Positions 2,136 to 42,564 of a stretch of 52,103 nucleotides of DNA are shown in pieces (position 1 is the first letter of the stretch; the number at the start of each line of letters is the position of its first letter). The DNA is from Tissierellia bacterium (GTDB lineage Bacteria; Bacillota; Clostridia; Tissierellales; Tissierellaceae). Location of the stretch: positions 1 to 52,103 of the forward strand of contig JAAYNS010000010.1 of NCBI GenBank assembly GCA_012520755.1, read 5' to 3'. The position numbers and the translations under genes were made by a program. A model generated the notes under the pieces. That model searched no databases, was not told the origin of the DNA, and was given only the letters and a program-made list of their open reading frames with translations.

Positions 2136-2290
2136 GTTGACCTAAGAGTTTCCCATAATGGTTGCTCAATCGGTGATTAATACTTTCCAGAGTCCTGTCA
2201 AAAAACGGTCCTTTTACCTGAGAGCATCAATATGAAAATGGCCTTCCATATTTTACCCCTTCGGTGCCACATAGTGGTCTCTCCCGAATT
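2129..2290 (-). promoter_or_regulatory. Tandem glycine riboswitch
   Basis: Read on the minus strand, aptamer 1 runs from CGGGAGAGACC (2286) through GGCACCGAAGGGGTAAAA to GCTCTCAGGTAAAAGGACCG (ending near 2206), all close to the glycine (gcvT) riboswitch consensus. After a short linker (TTTTTTGACAGGA) aptamer 2 follows: CTCTGGAAAG (2192) ... CACCGATTGAGCAACC ... AAACTCTTAGGTCAACAACAGAG (ending 2129), more diverged but complete, with a CTCTG/CAGAG P1 stem. It sits in the ~400-base leader of grdE and feeds a terminator. Glycine reductase is a known target of glycine riboswitches in clostridia, consistent with an on-switch in glycine excess. Confidence 0.93.
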
Positions 2291-2342
2291 TATCATTCAG
2301 AAACGTATAAAATTGTTATGTAAAATTTCACTGTCCTTAATG

Positions 2343-12244: not shown

Positions 12245-12861
12245 TATTTTAGATCTTCAAATGAAACCTGGTTTTTGTTTACAAGAGCATCTTCTATTTT
12301 TTTCTCTATCAAAAAGCATTTTCTGCATAGAGGTTCATACTCATTAGTTGCACCTATCACAACTCTTTCTGTGTCCTTAGTTTTTCTATGACTAACCCAA
12401 GCGTCTGTTCCGCATTTTACACAAACTGCATGATGTTTAGTTAAATAATCGGATATAGGCATCAACTCTTTTAAAACTTCAAATGGTTCACCACTAAAAT
12501 CCATGTCAAGTCCAGCTAATATAATAGTTATTTCATTTTCCAACATATCCTTAAATCCAGCAATTATCTTTTCTATTTTGCCCCCTAAAAATTGAACTTC
12601 ATCTATAGCTATAACATCAGGCTTATAATCCTTGCATACTTCTAAAACACCATCTATATCTTCTACTAAAATGGCTTCTAAAGAAGTTTCATCATGAGTA
12701 ATTATTTCAGAAGTTGTATACCTAGTATCCAAAGCTGGCTTAAAGGCCAAAGTTTTATATCCTGCTATTTTAAATCTCTTTACATCCTTCTCAAGGCTTG
12801 ATGTCTTCCCCGAAAACATTGATCCTGTATGAATAATTAATTTCCCTTTATATTGATGCAA
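12244..12861 (-). CDS. tdk: Thymidine kinase (type II)
   Basis: A 205-residue kinase that phosphorylates thymidine (and deoxyuridine) with ATP in the salvage pathway. The P-loop is HTGSMFSGKTSSLEK, the Walker B-like motif is VIAIDEVQFLGG, and the lasso/substrate region is DMDFSGEPFEVLKELMPISD. A structural zinc site is formed by CVKCG and CRKC near residues 147-150 and 182-185. The start is TTG behind GGAGGTCGTCGAAC. The gene is divergent from the ABC importer; the TATAAT that could serve it (12892-12897, minus) lies in a 12-bp inverted repeat. Confidence 0.93.
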   Translation of the reverse strand: MHQYKGKLIIHTGSMFSGKTSSLEKDVKRFKIAGYKTLAFKPALDTRYTTSEIITHDETSLEAILVEDIDGVLEVCKDYKPDVIAIDEVQFLGGKIEKIIAGFKDMLENEITIILAGLDMDFSGEPFEVLKELMPISDYLTKHHAVCVKCGTDAWVSHRKTKDTERVVIGATNEYEPLCRKCFLIEKKIEDALVNKNQVSFEDLK

Positions 12862-12883
12862 GTTCGACGACCTCCTTTTATTG

Positions 12884-12913
12884 ACTTATATATTATAGCA
12901 CTAATATATAAGT
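12884..12913. repeat. AT-rich inverted repeat between divergent tdk and ABC importer
   Basis: ACTTATATATTA (12884-12895) and its exact complement (12902-12913) flank TAGCAC. The left arm and loop contain TATAAT for the minus strand, so this may be an operator for tdk or for the importer. A run of five Ts follows on the plus strand, but the stem has almost no G/C, so a terminator is less likely. Confidence 0.5.
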
Positions 12914-13007
12914 TTTTGTTTAGAATTTATATTAAATATCCTATATATTCACCAAAGCCAGCATATATGAATAAAATGGATTATGATTTCGTAATAGGAG
13001 TGATCGT

Positions 13008-33919: not shown

Positions 33920-34135
33920 TTATTTCTTGAAGATAACTTTAAATAAATCTCCAACACCAAAAGTTGTCTTATTATAAATTTTATTATATGCGGCCTTTTT
34001 AGGATTTCTAACCCAACCCATTCCTTTTTTCCCGTAGAATGGGTTTACTGTACTTTTAACCTTCCTTTTTAATTTCCCTGTTGTTCTTGCTTTTATACTC
34101 TTCTTTAAACTTGGTTTACGTAATCCTATCTTCAT
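33920..34135 (-). CDS. Small, highly basic protein next to the CRISPR region
   Basis: A 71-residue protein with about 22 Lys/Arg and few acidic residues. It starts MKIGLRKPSLKKSIKARTTG and contains the segment NPFYGKKGMGW followed by NPKKAAYNKIYNKTTFG. The ATG follows GGGGGGAAATC, so it is clearly gene-like. Similar short lysine-rich proteins with a KxxxINPFYGKKGMGW core occur in Firmicutes and phages as far as I recall, but I cannot name a function; nucleic-acid binding is a reasonable guess from charge. It lies on the same strand as, and just past, the degenerate repeat array, so it may be read from the same transcript as the csm operon. Confidence 0.65.
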   Translation of the reverse strand: MKIGLRKPSLKKSIKARTTGKLKRKVKSTVNPFYGKKGMGWVRNPKKAAYNKIYNKTTFGVGDLFKVIFKK

Positions 34136-34170: not shown

Positions 34171-34540
34171 GTCTTTTTACCCTTACGAGGGTGGTGTGCT
34201 ACTAAGATGATGTAACATACCACTGAAGAAAGAAGGGATAACTAATTCCCGTACCCTTGCGAGTATCTTTAATCTTTGAAATAAATAAAACAAAAGAAAT
34301 GGTGTTATTTTATTTCCGTACCCTTGCGAGTGGTGGTGTTCCTAATATATTGTAAAAAAATTAAAAATGGGAGTAATTAAAATGTGTTCCCGTACCCTTG
34401 CGGGTGTCTAGTCTTTTTTGCATTTAAATTAAGGAGAATGATAAGCATGTTTCCGTACCCTTTAGAGTGTAGATACTTTGGCAATTTATAAATTACATAA
34501 GAAAGAAAGGTTATAGCATAGGCGTATCCTTTGCATTTAC
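34171..34540 (-). CRISPR. Degenerate six-unit repeat array (putative decayed type III-A CRISPR)
   Basis: Six related units lie at 34171-34192, 34245-34265, 34312-34332, 34386-34407, 34449-34470 and 34519-34540, 63-74 bases apart. On the minus strand the best units read CACCCGCAAGGGTACGGGAA, i.e. ACCC-GCAA-GGGT hairpin plus an ACGGGAAC/ACGGAAAC tail, which equals the 8-base crRNA handle known from type III-A systems. The outer units are more diverged (AAAAAGAC and ACGCCTAT tails). The 5' half expected of a ~36-base repeat is not conserved. Each interval also carries a GG(A)-rich patch on the plus strand at a roughly fixed place, so some intervals may not be true spacers. Directly downstream of csm6, same direction, no leader seen. 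Confidence 0.6.
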
Positions 34541-34565: not shown

Positions 34566-35891
34566 TTAGTACTTATTTAACTCCTCAGTGATATAATAGT
34601 TCATTTCATCATATATGTCAAAGACTCTTGCTTCTACCTTATTCCCATACATGGATTTAATCAAACCCTCTAACCTGTTTATTATCTGATTACTTGTCAT
34701 ATTGGAATTTTTTTGTATATCTTTTTCACTTATAGCGATTAGACTATGGGCTGATGGGTTTCTTAACATTCTATTTGCATTTCTTAGCTTTCCAAAGAAT
34801 TCCACTTCATTAGGTCGTGATCCTTTGCTATAAAAAACAATGGCCTCATCTAAAAAGTCTATACCCACCGTGCTTTTATCCCTAAACCCATACTTAAAAG
34901 CACTGTCCAGATATCTTCTAAAATCTGGATCTTTCATTTCTAGCTTTGACAGGTTCACAACTGTCTCACCATTTGTATATTTATCATAAAATTGGCTTGT
35001 ATCAATACTCCATACTATTTTTAGATAATCCTCCATTAACTCTATTATTAGTGGATTAAGACCTATAATCATGTCCGTCAATTGTTTTCTTCTCTGTTTG
35101 ATTTTTAGCATTAAATAGTATTCTACTATTCGTGAAATTGACGATTCTGCCACTGGAAATAAATTCAAACCATTATACTTGTCTATTTCTTTCTTAGCTT
35201 CAATATAGTCAAGATTGAGTCTGTGTTTACAATGAATAATCAATCGCTGTAGGCTTTCATTCTCAAATTCAGAAATTAGTTTAGCTGCCCCCTCATAGTC
35301 ATAAATATCTATTAAAGATTTTACCTGACTCTTAAGCATTGAATACTTAAAAGACATTATCCCTGGTTCCATACACCTATTGTTTGCCTCATCTAGATTA
35401 TCTAGATTATTTTCCATTAACTCAGCAATATCTCTATTTTTGCTGAGTTCTGGTCTGTCTGTGTTTGGACCTTCAATTGGAGTTGTAACCTGTACAACCC
35501 TTATCTTCTTATTAGTTGTCACTGCCTCAAGGCATAGAGTAGATTTCATTTGTGGTGTGCCTGAACTAACATTGAGGATAATTTCACTATCAGGATTTTC
35601 CTCTGATATTGTATTTATTATTCTGTTAAACTCTACTATAAAACTATCGAAGTCATATGGAAGAGCTTTACCTATAAATTTAATAACTTGAATTTTAGGA
35701 TTCAAAATCTTTATGGCAAGCTCACATTTGTTATCCACTAAATCTCTTTCATACATATCCTCCGAATAATATAAATAAACTTTTTCAGGCTTGTAATACC
35801 TAGTTATATGAAGCATGCTCCCATCAAAACCACCTCTTATTGGATCAGAAGTGCCTATAGGAGAAAAGAGTACACATTTATCTAAATTCAA
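34566..35891 (-). CDS. csm6: Csm6-like CARF-HEPN ribonuclease
   Basis: A 441-residue type III-A accessory nuclease. The N-terminal CARF domain has VLFSPIGTSDPIRGG and VSSGTPQMKST (near residue 110), which bind cyclic oligoadenylate made by Cas10. The C-terminal HEPN domain has RNANRMLRNPSAHS, giving the catalytic R-x4-H (Arg377...His382). When activated such proteins degrade RNA non-specifically and cause dormancy or death of the infected cell. The start used is TTG at 35889-35891 behind GGGAGGGGTTAGAA, overlapping the cas6 end by 14 bases. It is the last gene of the operon. Confidence 0.88.
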   Translation of the reverse strand: MNLDKCVLFSPIGTSDPIRGGFDGSMLHITRYYKPEKVYLYYSEDMYERDLVDNKCELAIKILNPKIQVIKFIGKALPYDFDSFIVEFNRIINTISEENPDSEIILNVSSGTPQMKSTLCLEAVTTNKKIRVVQVTTPIEGPNTDRPELSKNRDIAELMENNLDNLDEANNRCMEPGIMSFKYSMLKSQVKSLIDIYDYEGAAKLISEFENESLQRLIIHCKHRLNLDYIEAKKEIDKYNGLNLFPVAESSISRIVEYYLMLKIKQRRKQLTDMIIGLNPLIIELMEDYLKIVWSIDTSQFYDKYTNGETVVNLSKLEMKDPDFRRYLDSAFKYGFRDKSTVGIDFLDEAIVFYSKGSRPNEVEFFGKLRNANRMLRNPSAHSLIAISEKDIQKNSNMTSNQIINRLEGLIKSMYGNKVEARVFDIYDEMNYYITEELNKY

Positions 35892-36624
35892 TTCTAACCC
35901 CTCCCATTCCAAGTGCTGTACTGGACCCTATACCAGAGTATTCCGAGAATCTAAACATCAAATTACATAGATTTACTAAGGGTTCAGGCCCCCTAACCCT
36001 AAATTGAATCTTCCCAATAAAACCTTTCTTAGTAGCAGATTCAAGGCTATAATTACTTGCTCTAATATTAAAGTCAGATATATATGTATAATTATTTATA
36101 TGTTGTATGGCATCCCTGTCATCTATGCTGACTTCCTTAGCAAAAGCATTCCACTTGTTTAAGATGTTTTGATAAAGATAAGAAACTTGTGGTAATATAA
36201 CATTGTTACCGCTAATTTTAAAGCTACAAGGAGTAAGGAATGAAACATTAATATTACGACTTCCTCCCTCCGAGTATACATCTTTTGTCAGGTCTTTATA
36301 TGTTAAGCTAGGATAGGACTTAATATAATCGATTTTAAGAACCATATCCTTTTTCTTTATCTTTATTATATTAGTATTTGAAAATAACTTTTCTATCTCA
36401 ATGTCTACTTCTTTATCTAATGTAGCTATATTCCATACCCATTTATTGTCTCCCTTTGAGTAGGATAAAAACTGAGAAAAGGGCCTTAAGGATTGGCTAT
36501 GAAGATAATCAGTTAAATTGGGCGATAGGTTCTCCATCAAAAATCCATGGAATAAAGATCCATTATTTATATTAAGTTTTTTGTTTTCTTCTTGTTCAAA
36601 AACAATCTCTCTTCTTTTAAGCAT
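35878..36624 (-). CDS. cas6: CRISPR pre-crRNA endoribonuclease Cas6
   Basis: A 248-residue RAMP protein that cuts pre-crRNA within the repeat to leave the 8-base handle. The C-terminal glycine-rich loop GIGSSTALGMGGVRIEF is the Cas6 signature. The N-terminal SLFHGFLMENL carries a histidine in the position of the usual catalytic one; this is inferred from family alignment memory, not computed. The ATG at 36622-36624 follows GAGGTTGCTGAAA and overlaps the csm5 stop by 8 bases. It ends within the start region of csm6. The RNA it cuts would be the array downstream, or one elsewhere in the genome. Confidence 0.88.
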   Translation of the reverse strand: MLKRREIVFEQEENKKLNINNGSLFHGFLMENLSPNLTDYLHSQSLRPFSQFLSYSKGDNKWVWNIATLDKEVDIEIEKLFSNTNIIKIKKKDMVLKIDYIKSYPSLTYKDLTKDVYSEGGSRNINVSFLTPCSFKISGNNVILPQVSYLYQNILNKWNAFAKEVSIDDRDAIQHINNYTYISDFNIRASNYSLESATKKGFIGKIQFRVRGPEPLVNLCNLMFRFSEYSGIGSSTALGMGGVRIEFR

Positions 36625-37816
36625 TTTCAGCAACCTCAATTCTGCATACTCCGTTTAATATATCTTTACCTTCGTCATTGGATACTTTTAAGGTTCTTGG
36701 TGATATAATTCTATCATTTTTATGAATAAGTATGACCGGCCAGTCTCTATGAATAAGATTTCTAACTACCTTAAGGAGCTCATCTTTATCAGGTGCCAAG
36801 GCTAGCATAATTGTCTTTGCTAGATAGCCTGTCCCTCCTCCTATAAAAATATTCCCCTTGGCATGGGCATCAAAGGATATATATTCATCCAAGTTATAAA
36901 AAGCTCTAAAGACTCCATCTTTTCCTAGCAAAAGTTCAAATTGGGTTTGGAGGGCTTCATATATTTCTTCAATACTCTCCAGCCCAAGGTTAGGGTTTAG
37001 TTTGCTTGTATCTAAACTTAGTTTGAAAGTTCCTTCGGCTGGTGATACAAGGCATTCCCTGAAAATAGGAAGCAAGTTGTCGTATTCATCAGTTAAAGTT
37101 ACATCCTTTCTTTGAAAGAGCTTCATTCCTTGCCTATCAAATGAACTGGTATCGCTTATTGAAAGGCCTGACATTCCCCTATAAAGATGCTTTTTTCCCC
37201 TTTTGCCTTCTATAGAATAGTCAAATATTTCTTTAATTAATCTGCCTTCTATATTCTTGATATTCCATTTAGAAATTTTCTTGTTATTTGACTCTCTTTT
37301 TATTTCCTCCCAGTAGTCTATATACTTATTTCTATTCTTATAAATATAGTTTACAAGCAATGCATTTGTAATAGAACCCTTAATACTGCTTCCAGGAATG
37401 TAAGGTTGGCCTTGGATGTTTTTAATGAAACAAACAACATCATTTAACTGATTCTTTTTTATGTTTGACACATCAATTGTATATTTTATACATTCATCAA
37501 TATCACCATTAAACTTTTCCGTTGATGAAATACTATTGTACCATTGTCCAAGGTTTATACTATTTTCATTCTTGTTTTCCTCTTCTATTGTATTATCATT
37601 TAGCCCCGTAACATAGTCGTAATAGAGTCCAAGAAGATTTCTCTTTCCTAGGAACTTAGCAAGCTTTCTCTCATCTACAATTTTTAGTAGATTATTACTT
37701 GAATCATATATGTACTGGGATCTGTTAATCCTTGAATCTTCACCCCCACTAATGAATGTTGGGCTAATGATCTTAAGCTTCATACTATAGGTTTTGTAAC
37801 CCTTTATTCCCTTCAT
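36617..37816 (-). CDS. csm5: CRISPR type III-A RAMP protein Csm5
   Basis: A 399-residue RAMP protein that caps the crRNA 3' end of the Csm complex. Features are KLKIISPTFISGG at the N-terminus, the RAMP-type QPYIPGSSIKGSITNALL, LSISDTSSF, and the C-terminal GNIFIGGGTGYLAKTIMLAL glycine-rich loop. Length fits Csm5. It overlaps csm4 by 4 bases (ATGA) and cas6 by 8 bases, so the operon is tightly coupled. Start ATG behind CTGGGGGTGAACAT. Confidence 0.9.
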   Translation of the reverse strand: MKGIKGYKTYSMKLKIISPTFISGGEDSRINRSQYIYDSSNNLLKIVDERKLAKFLGKRNLLGLYYDYVTGLNDNTIEEENKNENSINLGQWYNSISSTEKFNGDIDECIKYTIDVSNIKKNQLNDVVCFIKNIQGQPYIPGSSIKGSITNALLVNYIYKNRNKYIDYWEEIKRESNNKKISKWNIKNIEGRLIKEIFDYSIEGKRGKKHLYRGMSGLSISDTSSFDRQGMKLFQRKDVTLTDEYDNLLPIFRECLVSPAEGTFKLSLDTSKLNPNLGLESIEEIYEALQTQFELLLGKDGVFRAFYNLDEYISFDAHAKGNIFIGGGTGYLAKTIMLALAPDKDELLKVVRNLIHRDWPVILIHKNDRIISPRTLKVSNDEGKDILNGVCRIEVAENA

Positions 37817-38838
37817 ATGTTCACCCCCAGATACATAGCCTTACCATACCTATATACTTTGTGGTTCCCACCACTTGAAAGTTCTACTATAGAGCCTTCT
37901 AAAGCTTTGCTAAGACATGCTCCTGCTTTCAACATTACTATTTGCTTTCTCTTAACATTGGCCTTAGAATAAGTTCTTGAGTATATAAATCCCTTTCTCA
38001 AAATTAATTGATAATAGGATTTACCGTCAGAAAGCGCATTTATTTCATCATCTTTTGGCGCCATGCAGGAAAGGGATATGTTAAAGTTACCACTAGTAGA
38101 AAGCATCTCAGCTAGTTTTCTATGACTTTCATATATAGGGATATCTTTTGATATTTCAATTGCATCTTCATCTAAATTAAATTTGCCATAGCCACTGCTT
38201 CTCTTTCCTCCAATACCTGTTGTAGACAAGGAGTCTACAACAATATCAAACTTGTCTTTAATATCTTTATTCATTTTAGCAATAAAGCATAGGCCTGCAT
38301 CCTTGAAAAATCTTACGGAAGCAACTTGATAGGGCAAAGTCTCTGGACAATAAGCTATTGCAGTTCTAATATTATCTTCTTCAACAAAAATCATATCTTT
38401 GTCCATGGCAAAGTTAATATCCCCACCAGATTTTAAAAATCTAAAGTATTCTTCTAATTTCCCAATACATATGTGGGTTGTTTTCTTGAGCTTCTTCTTA
38501 GAAACACTGTCTCCCCTTGTATCTAAGCTATGATTATCTCTCTCTACCATTATTACTGGTTTTGGCATATATATTTCACAATCTATGGTAGCTCCATTCT
38601 TATCAAGAATGTTTCTATATGGAAGTAAATCAGATACTAGAAAGCTACCCTCTCTTGAGATTGAAACAAAATCTTCCAAGTCTTCTTCACCAAAGATTCT
38701 AACCCATTCATTGCAAATTGCACTAAAAAGAGTGTCTGCATTTGAAGTGAATGCTGTAGTTGAAAGATTTGATGAAGCTTTGTCTATGCCAAACCTTACA
38801 GGAGTAGTATAATTCAGTTTATATAAGTAATATGGCAT
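37813..38838 (-). CDS. csm4: CRISPR type III-A RAMP protein Csm4
   Basis: A 341-residue RAMP protein that grips the 5' handle of the crRNA and contacts Cas10. The N-terminus MPYYLYKLNYTTPVRFG and the ADTLFSAICNEWVRIFG helix are typical, and STTGIGGKRSSGYGKF is the RAMP glycine-rich loop. Start ATG behind GGTGGTGATAAT, 13 bases after csm3; it overlaps csm5 by 4 bases. Confidence 0.92.
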   Translation of the reverse strand: MPYYLYKLNYTTPVRFGIDKASSNLSTTAFTSNADTLFSAICNEWVRIFGEEDLEDFVSISREGSFLVSDLLPYRNILDKNGATIDCEIYMPKPVIMVERDNHSLDTRGDSVSKKKLKKTTHICIGKLEEYFRFLKSGGDINFAMDKDMIFVEEDNIRTAIAYCPETLPYQVASVRFFKDAGLCFIAKMNKDIKDKFDIVVDSLSTTGIGGKRSSGYGKFNLDEDAIEISKDIPIYESHRKLAEMLSTSGNFNISLSCMAPKDDEINALSDGKSYYQLILRKGFIYSRTYSKANVKRKQIVMLKAGACLSKALEGSIVELSSGGNHKVYRYGKAMYLGVNI

Positions 38839-38851
38839 ATTATCACCACCA

Positions 38852-39544
38852 TTAGTTTTTTAGTATTTTGTCTGCTAGGGTATTAACTTTATCTTCATCA
38901 AATATATTGTAGGATTTTATCTCATAATCAAGGTCTTTGAATTCTAATCTTCCATACCCTCTTGTACCATGACCACCTATATAGTCATCCTCAACCAGAT
39001 TTATTGCTATTTTAATATTGTTGAGGTCTTCTTCTAAGTCTCCCATATCCTCAATATTGTATACTAATTTGAAATCAAATTCTGCACCAGCAGGCACTCT
39101 TTCTATTTGTCTTGGATTTGCCACTGATGTTATCCTATTTATTGTGTTTTCAAATTTTATTTCTGTGACATAAAGGTCAGGTTCCATATTAACTATAGTA
39201 TCCCTGCTTTCGCTTGTCATCAACATATCGAAAAACTGAAGTCTAGATTCTAAATAATCACCTGCATCTACAGATGTTCCAAAAAGTCTTTTTATCCCCT
39301 CTACTTCCTTATTCATATCCTGTAATTCTGGGGTTTCACTATATACCCTGGCTAATAGGTATCTCATCTTACCTTTCAGAGTGCTACCAGGAATAATTGG
39401 GAGTTTTGAAATCGTATCCTTAATTACTACACCATCAACTGCCCCTATGGCTGAAAAGTCTGAGGATCCTCCAATATGCATACCTGTTTTCACCTGTATT
39501 TTCCCCTTTATAATCAACTTCCCATAAAGTTTTTTTACAGCCAT
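38852..39544 (-). CDS. csm3: CRISPR type III-A backbone ribonuclease Csm3
   Basis: A 230-residue RAMP protein that forms the filament of the Csm complex and cuts the bound target RNA every six bases. The motif TGMHIGGSSDFSAIGAVDG contains Asp37, aligned with the catalytic Asp33 of the Streptococcus thermophilus protein, so target-RNA cleavage looks intact. LPIIPGSTLKGKMRYLLAR and NPRQIERVPAG follow, then YIGGHGTRGYGRLEF as the glycine-rich loop. The ATG at 39542-39544 is one base past the csm2 stop, behind GGGAGGAAACTAAT. Confidence 0.95.
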   Translation of the reverse strand: MAVKKLYGKLIIKGKIQVKTGMHIGGSSDFSAIGAVDGVVIKDTISKLPIIPGSTLKGKMRYLLARVYSETPELQDMNKEVEGIKRLFGTSVDAGDYLESRLQFFDMLMTSESRDTIVNMEPDLYVTEIKFENTINRITSVANPRQIERVPAGAEFDFKLVYNIEDMGDLEEDLNNIKIAINLVEDDYIGGHGTRGYGRLEFKDLDYEIKSYNIFDEDKVNTLADKILKN

Positions 39545-39545
39545 A

Positions 39546-39920
39546 TTAGTTTCCTCCCTTATATTTATGATAAGCAACAATTGCCTCTATATATCTATTG
39601 AAAGCTATAAACTTCTTTTTGCTATCCCCAATATCATCCATAATCCTTTCAATATCCGCCTTCTCCATGAATGATTTTACTTCTTTTTCTCGTCCACTCT
39701 GATATATCAGTTTAATCTTAACATACTGGATTTCATCAACTATATCTTGCGGTAGCTTGTCCCCTTCCATTTTTCCAGCACCTTGATAAGCCAATATCCT
39801 ATTGTGTATGCCATTTACTCCAGCAAGGAATTTTCTAATCTGGTTTGTTGAAAGCATTATATTGCCCCATTTATTAGTATTAAGGCTTTCTACAACCTTT
39901 TTTGCATCTTTCATGTCCAT
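39546..39920 (-). CDS. csm2: CRISPR type III-A small subunit Csm2
   Basis: A 124-residue mainly helical protein, the small subunit (Cas11-like) of the Csm complex that lines the crRNA-target duplex. The segment STNQIRKFLAGVNGIHNRIL and the C-terminal KKFIAFNRYIEAIVAYHKYKG are typical of Csm2. Identity also rests on position between cas10 and csm3. The ATG follows GGGAGGAATAAG and lies one base past the cas10 stop; it is followed by csm3. Confidence 0.9.
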   Translation of the reverse strand: MDMKDAKKVVESLNTNKWGNIMLSTNQIRKFLAGVNGIHNRILAYQGAGKMEGDKLPQDIVDEIQYVKIKLIYQSGREKEVKSFMEKADIERIMDDIGDSKKKFIAFNRYIEAIVAYHKYKGGN

Positions 39921-39921
39921 C

Positions 39922-42438
39922 TTATTCCTCCCTTTCCTTTCGATTCAAAAGTATGACAAGATTAATTGCCATAGTGGCAGCTTTTCTATCTTCATCATCG
40001 AGTATCCAGTTGTACATTGTCTTTTTAAAGTCTTCATATACTAGCAACTTATCCTTGTCATTCTTATGGGGTTTCATTCTCCCTAGCTGATATGCCAGTC
40101 TTGCAATATTTATATTATTGTCATCCTTGAATAACAAATAAAACCTGTAAAGCAATTGATTACCAGCGTAAATTTTTTCTTTATTAAGCTCATGTTCTTC
40201 AGGATTAAAATAAAACCACCTATTGAGTTTCTCCATTTTATCTAAGCAAACGCTATCTTTAAAATCAGACCAAGTAAAAACATTAGAGTCATCTTCATAA
40301 TCAAAAATAGCAATTGAATTTTTACTATCATTATTGTGGCTTTTTGCTAAATCTTCAAGCTCACCTGTTTTTATAGCCATTTGGCTAATTGGATATCCTT
40401 TTGGAAATAGGCCGATACCAGCAGAAAGAGAAAGACTCCCTAGGGAAAATTTATTGAAGGCATCCCTTAAATTTACTGAAAACTCAAGAATTTCATCCCA
40501 AGGCCCAACTGCAAAAACATCATCTCCACCTGAATACACAATTACAATGTTCTTTTCCTTGCCCTTAAGATTCTTCCTACTTCCAGGAAGTCTAAAAGAA
40601 AACTGACTGTCTGCCTTCCCATTACATAACTTGTTAATTTCATACTTAAAGAACATAGTCAACTCTCTAGAAAAGGTAGATGTTCTGGAAAATGTTATAT
40701 TGTCATATTTTCCCTCATCTTGATCATGTTTTTCAAATCCAGAAACAAATGCCTTTCCAAGATCATCTACATCTGCTCTCAATACGCCTAACCTTTTTAT
40801 TCCACAGCTTTGAGAAGCAAGTTCTTCAAAATCTATCGCACTATTGCTTTCACTTCTTTTATTATAGTTTCCTATCCAAAGATTAGTAGAGTAATTTATG
40901 CCTATCATTGGCTCGTTTATTGAATATACTCTTTTATAATAGTCTGGAGCTAATTTCATATTTTCTTCTACTCTAGACATGGTATGTATGTCCAGAAATT
41001 TCCTTGACCCAATGGATGGAACCCTAACACCTTCTCTTTCATCTTCCTTAATTACAATAAAATTCTTCTCTTCTAATCCATGAATTCTTGCTATTTTTAT
41101 TCCTAAACTTGCTAAAGAATCGCAATTATTGCAGGCAAATAAATCTGTGGCCTTTTGAAATGCTACTAAATGGTCACTTTCGCCACATATTATACACTCT
41201 TTTTCATATTGTGCCTTTTTGTTATACTGGGAATCTGGATTAAATAAGTCTTTCAATTGACCACCCTTGTACCTTTGTAGCTTGTTTTTGGATATCTTTT
41301 TGGACACTCCAGAGTATATTTCCCCTATATAATTTTCTTTGTTTTCTTTAATGTCAATTCCATTGCCAAGTTGATCTGCAGTACACTCTTCATAGCTCAT
41401 TTCAAGATATAAGTTAATAGAAAACATCTCAAGAAGTTGTTTGTTTATTTCTTCCTTGCATTTATTGATTATTTCTTTAATCATTTCCGTATTTGGAAGA
41501 AGCATATAGAAGTGGCCTCCACCGGAATATATTAAATTCGCTCTAGTTAAACCTGCCTGGTCTAGAATATCATCTATTGCATTCTCCACCATAATCTCAA
41601 GGTATAGACTCCTTCCCCTAAGAGATTTAAGAGCCCCCTTGCTTGCTATTGTATAAATAAAGTCCTGTATACCTGATACATCCCCCGAAACAAGAAGAAA
41701 AGCACTTTCTTGTCTAAAGTCTTTGGATTCAAAGAATGTTCTTCTATAGTCTTTGATTCCTTGGTTGTCAGCATATATGTACATACAAGAAGCAAGGGCA
41801 CATGTTATCTTTGAATGGTCATAAATTGATATATCTGGTATCTCTTTTGTACTAATACTTGATGGTATCCCCGATGTTGTTAACTCAAGGAGTTTAAGTA
41901 GTGAATTTGATGAATCTAAAATTCCAGGCTGACTACTTAGATACTTCTTAATCAAAGTAACAATCTCCTTATATCTTCCTTGACTTGTATTAGCTCTTAA
42001 GGATTCGAGATTTTCTACTGGAATTTTTACCGATTCATTCATAAAATATGGTTTAAGATCATAAGCTCCTAATTTTTTAGACTTATGAAGATTTAGCTGA
42101 TTGAAAACTGAATGAAGGGGTGTTTTCTCATCAAAGGTCCCCTTGTCCAGCTCTTCATAGATTAATCTACGATCAAGGCCTGAAGCTATATTGTCTGCTT
42201 CATAAACTATATATGCCATGCTGTCATCTCTTAGGCCTGCATTTATTAAAAAAGCATGATGATGATATTTAATGCAATCTAAAATCTCAGCTTTATTATT
42301 CATTAGAATAGATTCAACTGCGATAAATTCTGCACCTGCCTTGCTATGGTTACCACCGTTATGGTCACTTCTATATACTAGTTTACCAATGTCATGGAGC
42401 AGGCTTCCCTTCACTGCTATATCAATTCTTTCATACAC
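39922..42438 (-). CDS. cas10: CRISPR type III-A effector Cas10/Csm1
   Basis: An 838-residue multi-domain protein. The N-terminal HD nuclease motif SLLHDIGKLVYRSDH (His15-Asp16) degrades single-stranded DNA. Two palm domains follow, the first with SGDVSGIQDFIYTIASKGAL (~250) and the second with VYSGGDDVFAVGPW, whose GGDD (637-640) makes cyclic oligoadenylates from ATP. A zinc ribbon (CIICGESD ... CNNC, ~415-439) lies between. All catalytic motifs look intact. The start used is a GTG at 42436-42438 (VYERIDIAVKG) 8 bases after GGGGG, because family members begin about ten residues before the HD motif. It heads the operon. Confidence 0.95.
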   Translation of the reverse strand: MYERIDIAVKGSLLHDIGKLVYRSDHNGGNHSKAGAEFIAVESILMNNKAEILDCIKYHHHAFLINAGLRDDSMAYIVYEADNIASGLDRRLIYEELDKGTFDEKTPLHSVFNQLNLHKSKKLGAYDLKPYFMNESVKIPVENLESLRANTSQGRYKEIVTLIKKYLSSQPGILDSSNSLLKLLELTTSGIPSSISTKEIPDISIYDHSKITCALASCMYIYADNQGIKDYRRTFFESKDFRQESAFLLVSGDVSGIQDFIYTIASKGALKSLRGRSLYLEIMVENAIDDILDQAGLTRANLIYSGGGHFYMLLPNTEMIKEIINKCKEEINKQLLEMFSINLYLEMSYEECTADQLGNGIDIKENKENYIGEIYSGVSKKISKNKLQRYKGGQLKDLFNPDSQYNKKAQYEKECIICGESDHLVAFQKATDLFACNNCDSLASLGIKIARIHGLEEKNFIVIKEDEREGVRVPSIGSRKFLDIHTMSRVEENMKLAPDYYKRVYSINEPMIGINYSTNLWIGNYNKRSESNSAIDFEELASQSCGIKRLGVLRADVDDLGKAFVSGFEKHDQDEGKYDNITFSRTSTFSRELTMFFKYEINKLCNGKADSQFSFRLPGSRKNLKGKEKNIVIVYSGGDDVFAVGPWDEILEFSVNLRDAFNKFSLGSLSLSAGIGLFPKGYPISQMAIKTGELEDLAKSHNNDSKNSIAIFDYEDDSNVFTWSDFKDSVCLDKMEKLNRWFYFNPEEHELNKEKIYAGNQLLYRFYLLFKDDNNINIARLAYQLGRMKPHKNDKDKLLVYEDFKKTMYNWILDDEDRKAATMAINLVILLNRKEREE

Positions 42439-42472
42439 ATGGCAAACCCCCTTTGCTATACATTTGTATACT

Positions 42473-42503
42473 ATAATAACATATTTTTTGTGGTTATTGT
42501 CGA
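42473..42503 (-). promoter_or_regulatory. Putative promoter of the csm operon
   Basis: Minus strand TGTTATTAT gives an extended -10 (TATTAT at 42473-42478), with a weak -35-like TCGACA 19 bases upstream. A leader of about 30 bases would precede the GTG of cas10. No other promoter-like pair was found between the isochorismatase terminator and cas10. Confidence 0.4.
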
Positions 42504-42564
42504 ATATTAAGAGTTTTTGAAGGTTTTTGAAATTAGTCATACCCTAGTCATAATCCTATATATT

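Follow-up and report, generated by a model that had tools for sequence, protein, structure and literature searches.

Spacer integration copies each new CRISPR repeat from an existing one, so that arrays are uniform. The genes cas1-cas2 are often present in type III-A (Csm) loci, although they are not required for membership. Among described type III-A systems, the Lactococcus pKLM repeat ends CTCCTCGATAAAAGGGGACGAGAAC (PMC3519859), and a passage of the same article cites GGGACG at the 3' end of the S. epidermidis repeat as critical for Cas6 cleavage. Degenerate repeats are also on record elsewhere: a section of PMC12669027 describes them for type VII, in systems without adaptation, and CreA genes carry degenerated repeats that retain the Cas6-processing nucleotides and the 5' tag (PMC8501985, PMC9458426).

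Here, we analyze a degenerate repeat array in DNA from a Tissierellia bacterium (contig JAAYNS010000010.1; "the window" refers to the whole stretch of 52,103 nucleotides). Like the type III-A arrays of S. epidermidis and Lactococcus pKLM, this array has repeats whose 3' end consists of a stem and an 8-nt tag, has intervals of about 35 nt, and lies beside cas10-csm-cas6. Our results make it very likely that its units are the remnant array of the adjacent type III-A operon, that cas1-cas2 were lost, and that the parts of the repeat serving processing and tagging were kept by selection.

Results

A degenerate array behind a complete csm operon

The array adjoins csm6 and runs in the direction of the operon, as originally predicted. 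It occupies the minus strand, bounded by the csm6 stop at 34566 and by a small ORF whose start is at 34135, downstream of a complete type III-A operon with the order cas10-csm2-csm3-csm4-csm5-cas6-csm6 (Table 1). All seven operon ORFs, nearly 2,700 codons, are intact, and the locus combines cas10/csm1 and csm2-csm5 with its own Cas6 endoribonuclease. It is without cas1, and the Pfam model for Cas1 found no match in the window's genome, which is 96% complete. A search of 27 other genomes of the same family found no Csm6; the locus was therefore either acquired in this lineage or lost in the related ones. No orthologous array was found in the family either, matches to the array DNA there being AT-rich noise.

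Table 1. Coordinates of the operon, the repeat units and the intervals in the window.
Feature	Position	Strand	Observation
cas10/csm1	39922..42540	-	TIGR02578 687 bits; LLHDIGK (HD) and SGGDD (cyclase) motifs in translation
csm2	39546..39920	-	profile matches
csm3	38852..39580	-	profile matches
csm4	37813..38838	-	profile matches
csm5	36617..37816	-	profile matches
cas6	35878..36639	-	PADLOC Cas6_IIIa 5e-60; Pfam Cas6 62.6 bits (cut-off 25)
csm6 (CARF-HEPN ribonuclease)	34566..35912	-	TIGR02672 382.6 bits; RNPSAH HEPN motif in translation
Promoter-like TTGACA-17-TATTAT	34593..34621	-	inside csm6 3' end, about 130 nt before unit A; 11/12 match
Claimed first unit, unsupported	34519..34538	-	12 mismatches/20
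Unit A: hairpin ACTC-TAAA-GGGT + tag ACGGAAAC	34449..34468	-	2 mismatches/20; 4-bp stem kept
Interval after unit A	34422..34448	-	opposite strand AAGGAG-10 nt-ATG at tag junction
Unit B: hairpin ACCC-GCAA-GGGT + tag ACGGGAAC	34386..34405	-	consensus match; folds, 4-bp hairpin, GCAA loop
Interval after unit B	34348..34385	-	opposite strand GGGAG-8 nt-ATG, 1 nt from tag
Unit C: hairpin ACTC-GCAA-GGGT + tag ACGGAAAT	34312..34331	-	consensus match; folds
Interval after unit C	34281..34311	-	
Unit D: hairpin ACTC-GCAA-GGGT + tag ACGGGAAT	34245..34264	-	consensus match; folds
Interval after unit D	34207..34244	-	
Unit E, partial: hairpin present, tag lost (AAAAAGAC)	34171..34190	-	6 mismatches; folds
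Antisense Shine-Dalgarno + ATG motifs	34431-34449 and 34367-34384	+	at tag junction

The repeats consist of a hairpin followed by a ACGGAAAC/ACGGGAAC tag and are spaced 63-74 nt apart, in agreement with the prediction of a hairpin and a type III-A handle-like tail at this spacing. Each has the form [drifted]-ACYC-NNNN-GGGT-ACGGRAAY, with handle starts at 34456, 34393, 34319, and 34252. The four units A-D differ from the consensus at 1-2 of 20 positions, and the 19-mer core CTCGCAAGGGTACGGRAAC matches four times in the window with three mismatches or fewer, whereas shuffled sequences are expected to give 0.01 matches and none reached four. The short hairpin expected of such repeats can form in the units, with modest energies. 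Six units had been claimed. Beyond the four solid ones, a fifth, unit E, keeps the hairpin and has lost the tag; the best of 25 random positions reaches six or fewer mismatches with P of about 0.003, and unit E is probably the last repeat of the array. The sixth, near 34526, was rejected because its 12 mismatches in 20 lie at chance level.

The array shows direct repeats, regular spacing, and unrelated intervals, and its repeats end in a stem and a tag that match the cognate subtype. Only about 20 nt are common to the units, however, and the sequence 5' of the hairpin has drifted to background, as had been noted from the sequence (identity of 0.50 between units versus a spacer background of 0.52). 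We call the array decayed because near-identical full-length repeats (about 28-37 nt) are absent.

The promoter-like site in the 3' end of csm6 is a possible promoter of the array; the window holds eight sites of this quality in 52 kb on both strands, and no comparable site was found before the other decayed arrays described below. Directly behind the array, on the minus strand, is an ORF for a basic protein of 71 amino acids (33920-34135). This protein matches the phage family phrog_10934 (function unassigned) at 1.4e-32 and three other PHROGs below 1e-27, with no Pfam match.

The stem and tag recur in the arrays of related csm loci

To place the array among its relatives, we collected 67 loci by a Csm3 scan, 63 more from whole-genome samples, and 25 stretches by searching the family of L071's genome with a pattern, excluding near-identical duplicate loci. 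Cas genes were located by tblastn with the window proteins and eight Cas1 queries. Most arrays beside related csm operons consist of full repeats ending CCCC-loop-GGGG-ACGGAAAC at a spacing of about 70 nt. The window's nearest neighbor on the Csm3 tree is L122, whose genes run cas10-csm2-3-4-5-cas6-csm6-cas1, with an intact array of TTTGAAGAACACTAATCCCCTTCAGGGGACGGAAAC after cas1. Had L122 lost its leader and cas1-cas2, it would resemble the window locus.

These intact arrays bear on the two readings first offered for the units, a decayed CRISPR array and a novel class of repeated, structured RNA. Opposite-strand short ORFs with good ribosome-binding sites, such as MFPYPLECRYFGNL, could be taken to favor a non-CRISPR element, either a structured RNA or an antisense mini-ORF. 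Stem, tag, spacing, strand, and position nevertheless all match the ordinary CRISPR arrays of related csm loci, the mini-ORF reading frame is not common to the loci, and Rfam, at gathering and relaxed thresholds, returned nothing relevant for the array. We therefore hold a new element to be highly improbable, and the decayed-CRISPR reading is the one that these data support. Elsewhere in the window, Rfam identified a glycine riboswitch aptamer (2196-2296, minus strand; RF00504, 61.6 bits).

Repeat erosion is associated with absence of local cas1

We scored erosion as the within-array identity of the repeat 5' half (between -24 and -14 relative to the tag, with shifts allowed) in 53 csm loci with arrays, taking one array per locus. 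Identity fell below 0.75 in 8 of the 21 loci that lack an intact local cas1 and in 0 of the 32 with cas1 (Fisher P = 2.3e-4); with a cut-off of 0.85, the counts were 10/21 and 0/32 (P = 1.8e-5). The eight eroded loci are the window, L050, L052, L070, L071, L087, L112, and L125, and erosion changes eight times on the Csm3 tree, with about eight separate origins. A ninth array, L047, is also low; it has no clear stem and is not among the eight. Erosion tracks absence of cas1 in 5-6 phylogenetically independent pairs and the reverse in none (sign test, P of 0.03-0.06). Decayed arrays are also short, with 3-8 units versus a median of 13.

The association is permissive rather than strict because 13 of the 21 loci without local cas1 still keep good repeats. 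The genomes of some relatives hold Cas1 elsewhere, where it could act in trans. Among the stretches from the family of L071's genome was a further array with mild decay and no cas1, L220; a phylum sample of 40 loci contained few arrays of this type and none that was strongly decayed.

Several individual loci merit description. At L071, cas1 is a 444-base fragment (12496-12939) between the decayed array and csm6, apparently a loss of adaptation caught in progress. L161 is a mild exception, with an intact cas1 and several arrays of variable repeats (5' half 0.82-0.91). In the genome of L076, cas1 is split and contains a TAG stop (G084:C135:4902-5514), and the repeats of the csm array are partly variable. 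In L088 (10317-10688), the leader-distal units vary in an otherwise uniform array, and TTTATCTCC or CTTATCTCC recurs in several of the spacers there.

The stem and tag are retained while the 5' half and loop drift

A position profile separates the retained from the drifting parts of the repeat. The 5' half (positions -27 to -13) scores 0.27-0.57 in decayed arrays versus 0.91-0.98 in arrays with cas1. Within the hairpin of decayed arrays, the 5' stem arm reaches 0.83-0.94 and the loop 0.43-0.74. The 3' stem arm and ACG are near 1.0, values partly built in by a unit finder that demands GGG and A[CT]G, which does not apply to the 5' arm or the loop; the last tag letter is free (0.29). Retention of the stem and tag fits the need for GGGACG in Cas6 cleavage reported for S. 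epidermidis, as cited in that passage of PMC3519859.

This profile bears on whether the array is simply dead, that is, unprocessed and passive debris whose leftover similarity reflects age. Unit E has lost its tag, the claimed first unit is gone, the tags of two units end in T, and the intervals have no identified targets, all of which would suit such debris. Under neutral decay, however, the stem and tag should disappear at the same rate as the 5' half, and the latter is already at background; moreover, several loci vary in their loop letters and keep their stem letters, and the operon is intact. We thus judge a purely dead array unlikely. An intact copy of the consensus repeat elsewhere in the genome, named in the original prediction as the sign of plain decay, was sought and not found, nor was a second array with the window's repeat. 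The C108 near-match was discarded since it sits in an apparent ABC-transporter gene. "Plain decay" is too weak a description because the decay is patterned, with stem and tag kept while the 5' half and loop drift, and because it recurs in separate lineages without local cas1.

The intervals and their junction motif

The intervals had been described as carrying a GG(A)-rich patch that can pair with the tag. The patch exists, but the pairing does not exceed chance: the summed longest complementarity is 16 versus 14.7 for shuffled spacers (P = 0.25; with wobble, 0.80). In two of the four window intervals, an antisense Shine-Dalgarno sequence with an ATG describes the G-rich patch better. L050, L052, and L125 each have a single interval with this motif at the junction, so that 5 of 39 decayed-array intervals carry it at -1 to +2 nt of the tag junction (shuffled mean, 0.4), compared with 8 of 904 in other arrays; the P value of 9e-5 is optimistic, as the motif was spotted post hoc in the same data.

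This excess raises the question of a regulatory role, in which the guides would be antisense to a ribosome-binding site and start codon and Csm would silence mRNA of the host or of a mobile element, comparable to type I CreA. Post-adaptation type III-A arrays would then be kept as fixed antisense guides to translation starts, with Csm as a silencer of specific mRNAs. The junction placement is not repeated in the later loci L220 and L074, which carry the motif elsewhere in the interval, and enrichment at any register is weak (P = 0.026). Gene-start spacers at any register make up 4% in intact arrays, and Shine-Dalgarno and ATG motifs are common at AT-rich gene starts. No self-target was found inside the csm loci and no convincing target of the intervals in the window's own genome; in the 12 kb around the array, the best ungapped 24-mers have 6-8 mismatches. 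We accordingly give a regulatory array, and a general role of such arrays in silencing, little credence.

Searches for a foreign origin of the intervals gave no significant phage or plasmid match, phage matches appearing only at E of 1 or more. The four window intervals (as exact 20-22-mers) and three relatives' intervals have no exact match in viral contigs, and no arrays for spacer comparison were found in other genomes of L125's genus.

Discussion

A remnant array of the adjacent operon, the reading we favor, would arise as follows. The ancestor would have resembled present-day L122 in possessing cas1-cas2 together with a uniform array. Loss of cas1-cas2 would stop repeat copying, leaving each repeat to mutate alone, and the parts needed only for copying would drift to background. 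The 4-bp stem by the cut site and the 8-nt tag would be kept, as Cas6 cuts there and the Csm complex holds the tag. The array would thereby become a source of a few fixed guide RNAs for an intact Cas10-Csm-Csm6 module. The 5' half is at background, yet seven ORFs remain open, which implies that the operon kept its usefulness well beyond the time when repeat copying ended. What the data show is the anatomy, the genes present, the lack of cas1, the retained stem and tag, and the recurrence in independent loci; transcription, processing, loading, and any current target are inferences. The array probably still supplies a few fixed guide RNAs to Cas10-Csm-Csm6.

One and the same repeat has to serve both adaptation and guide-RNA production, which differ in what they require of it. 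Arrays without cas1 offer a natural mutation scan in which the survivors, the stem and the first tag letters, would mark the needs of processing and loading, and the drifting 5' half and loop would be needed only for copying. The results suggest that the effector module of a type III-A system can persist after new guides can no longer be acquired. Array finders that want near-identical repeats may score such loci as array-less.

Set against the described type III-A systems of S. epidermidis and Lactococcus pKLM, with 16 identical 36-nt repeats and cas1, the window array has four to five units with about 20 nt in common and no cas1, and its stem is ACYC/GGGU rather than CCCC/GGGG. The leader-distal degenerate repeats of ordinary arrays, such as the distal end of L088, likewise decay where no new copies arrive; in the window array, by contrast, decay extends to all units and most of the tag survives. 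CreA (CreTA) belongs to type I and has only one or two repeats; its regulatory target is known, as is a toxin. Neither is shown for the window array, for whose intervals no partly complementary target was found in the same locus. The type VII effector, as described in that section of PMC12669027, is Cas14, unlike the window's Csm. In the open-licence literature, we found no paper that ties half-repeat erosion in type III-A arrays to loss of cas1. Precedents exist in the degenerate repeats of type VII and the patterned degeneration of CreA.
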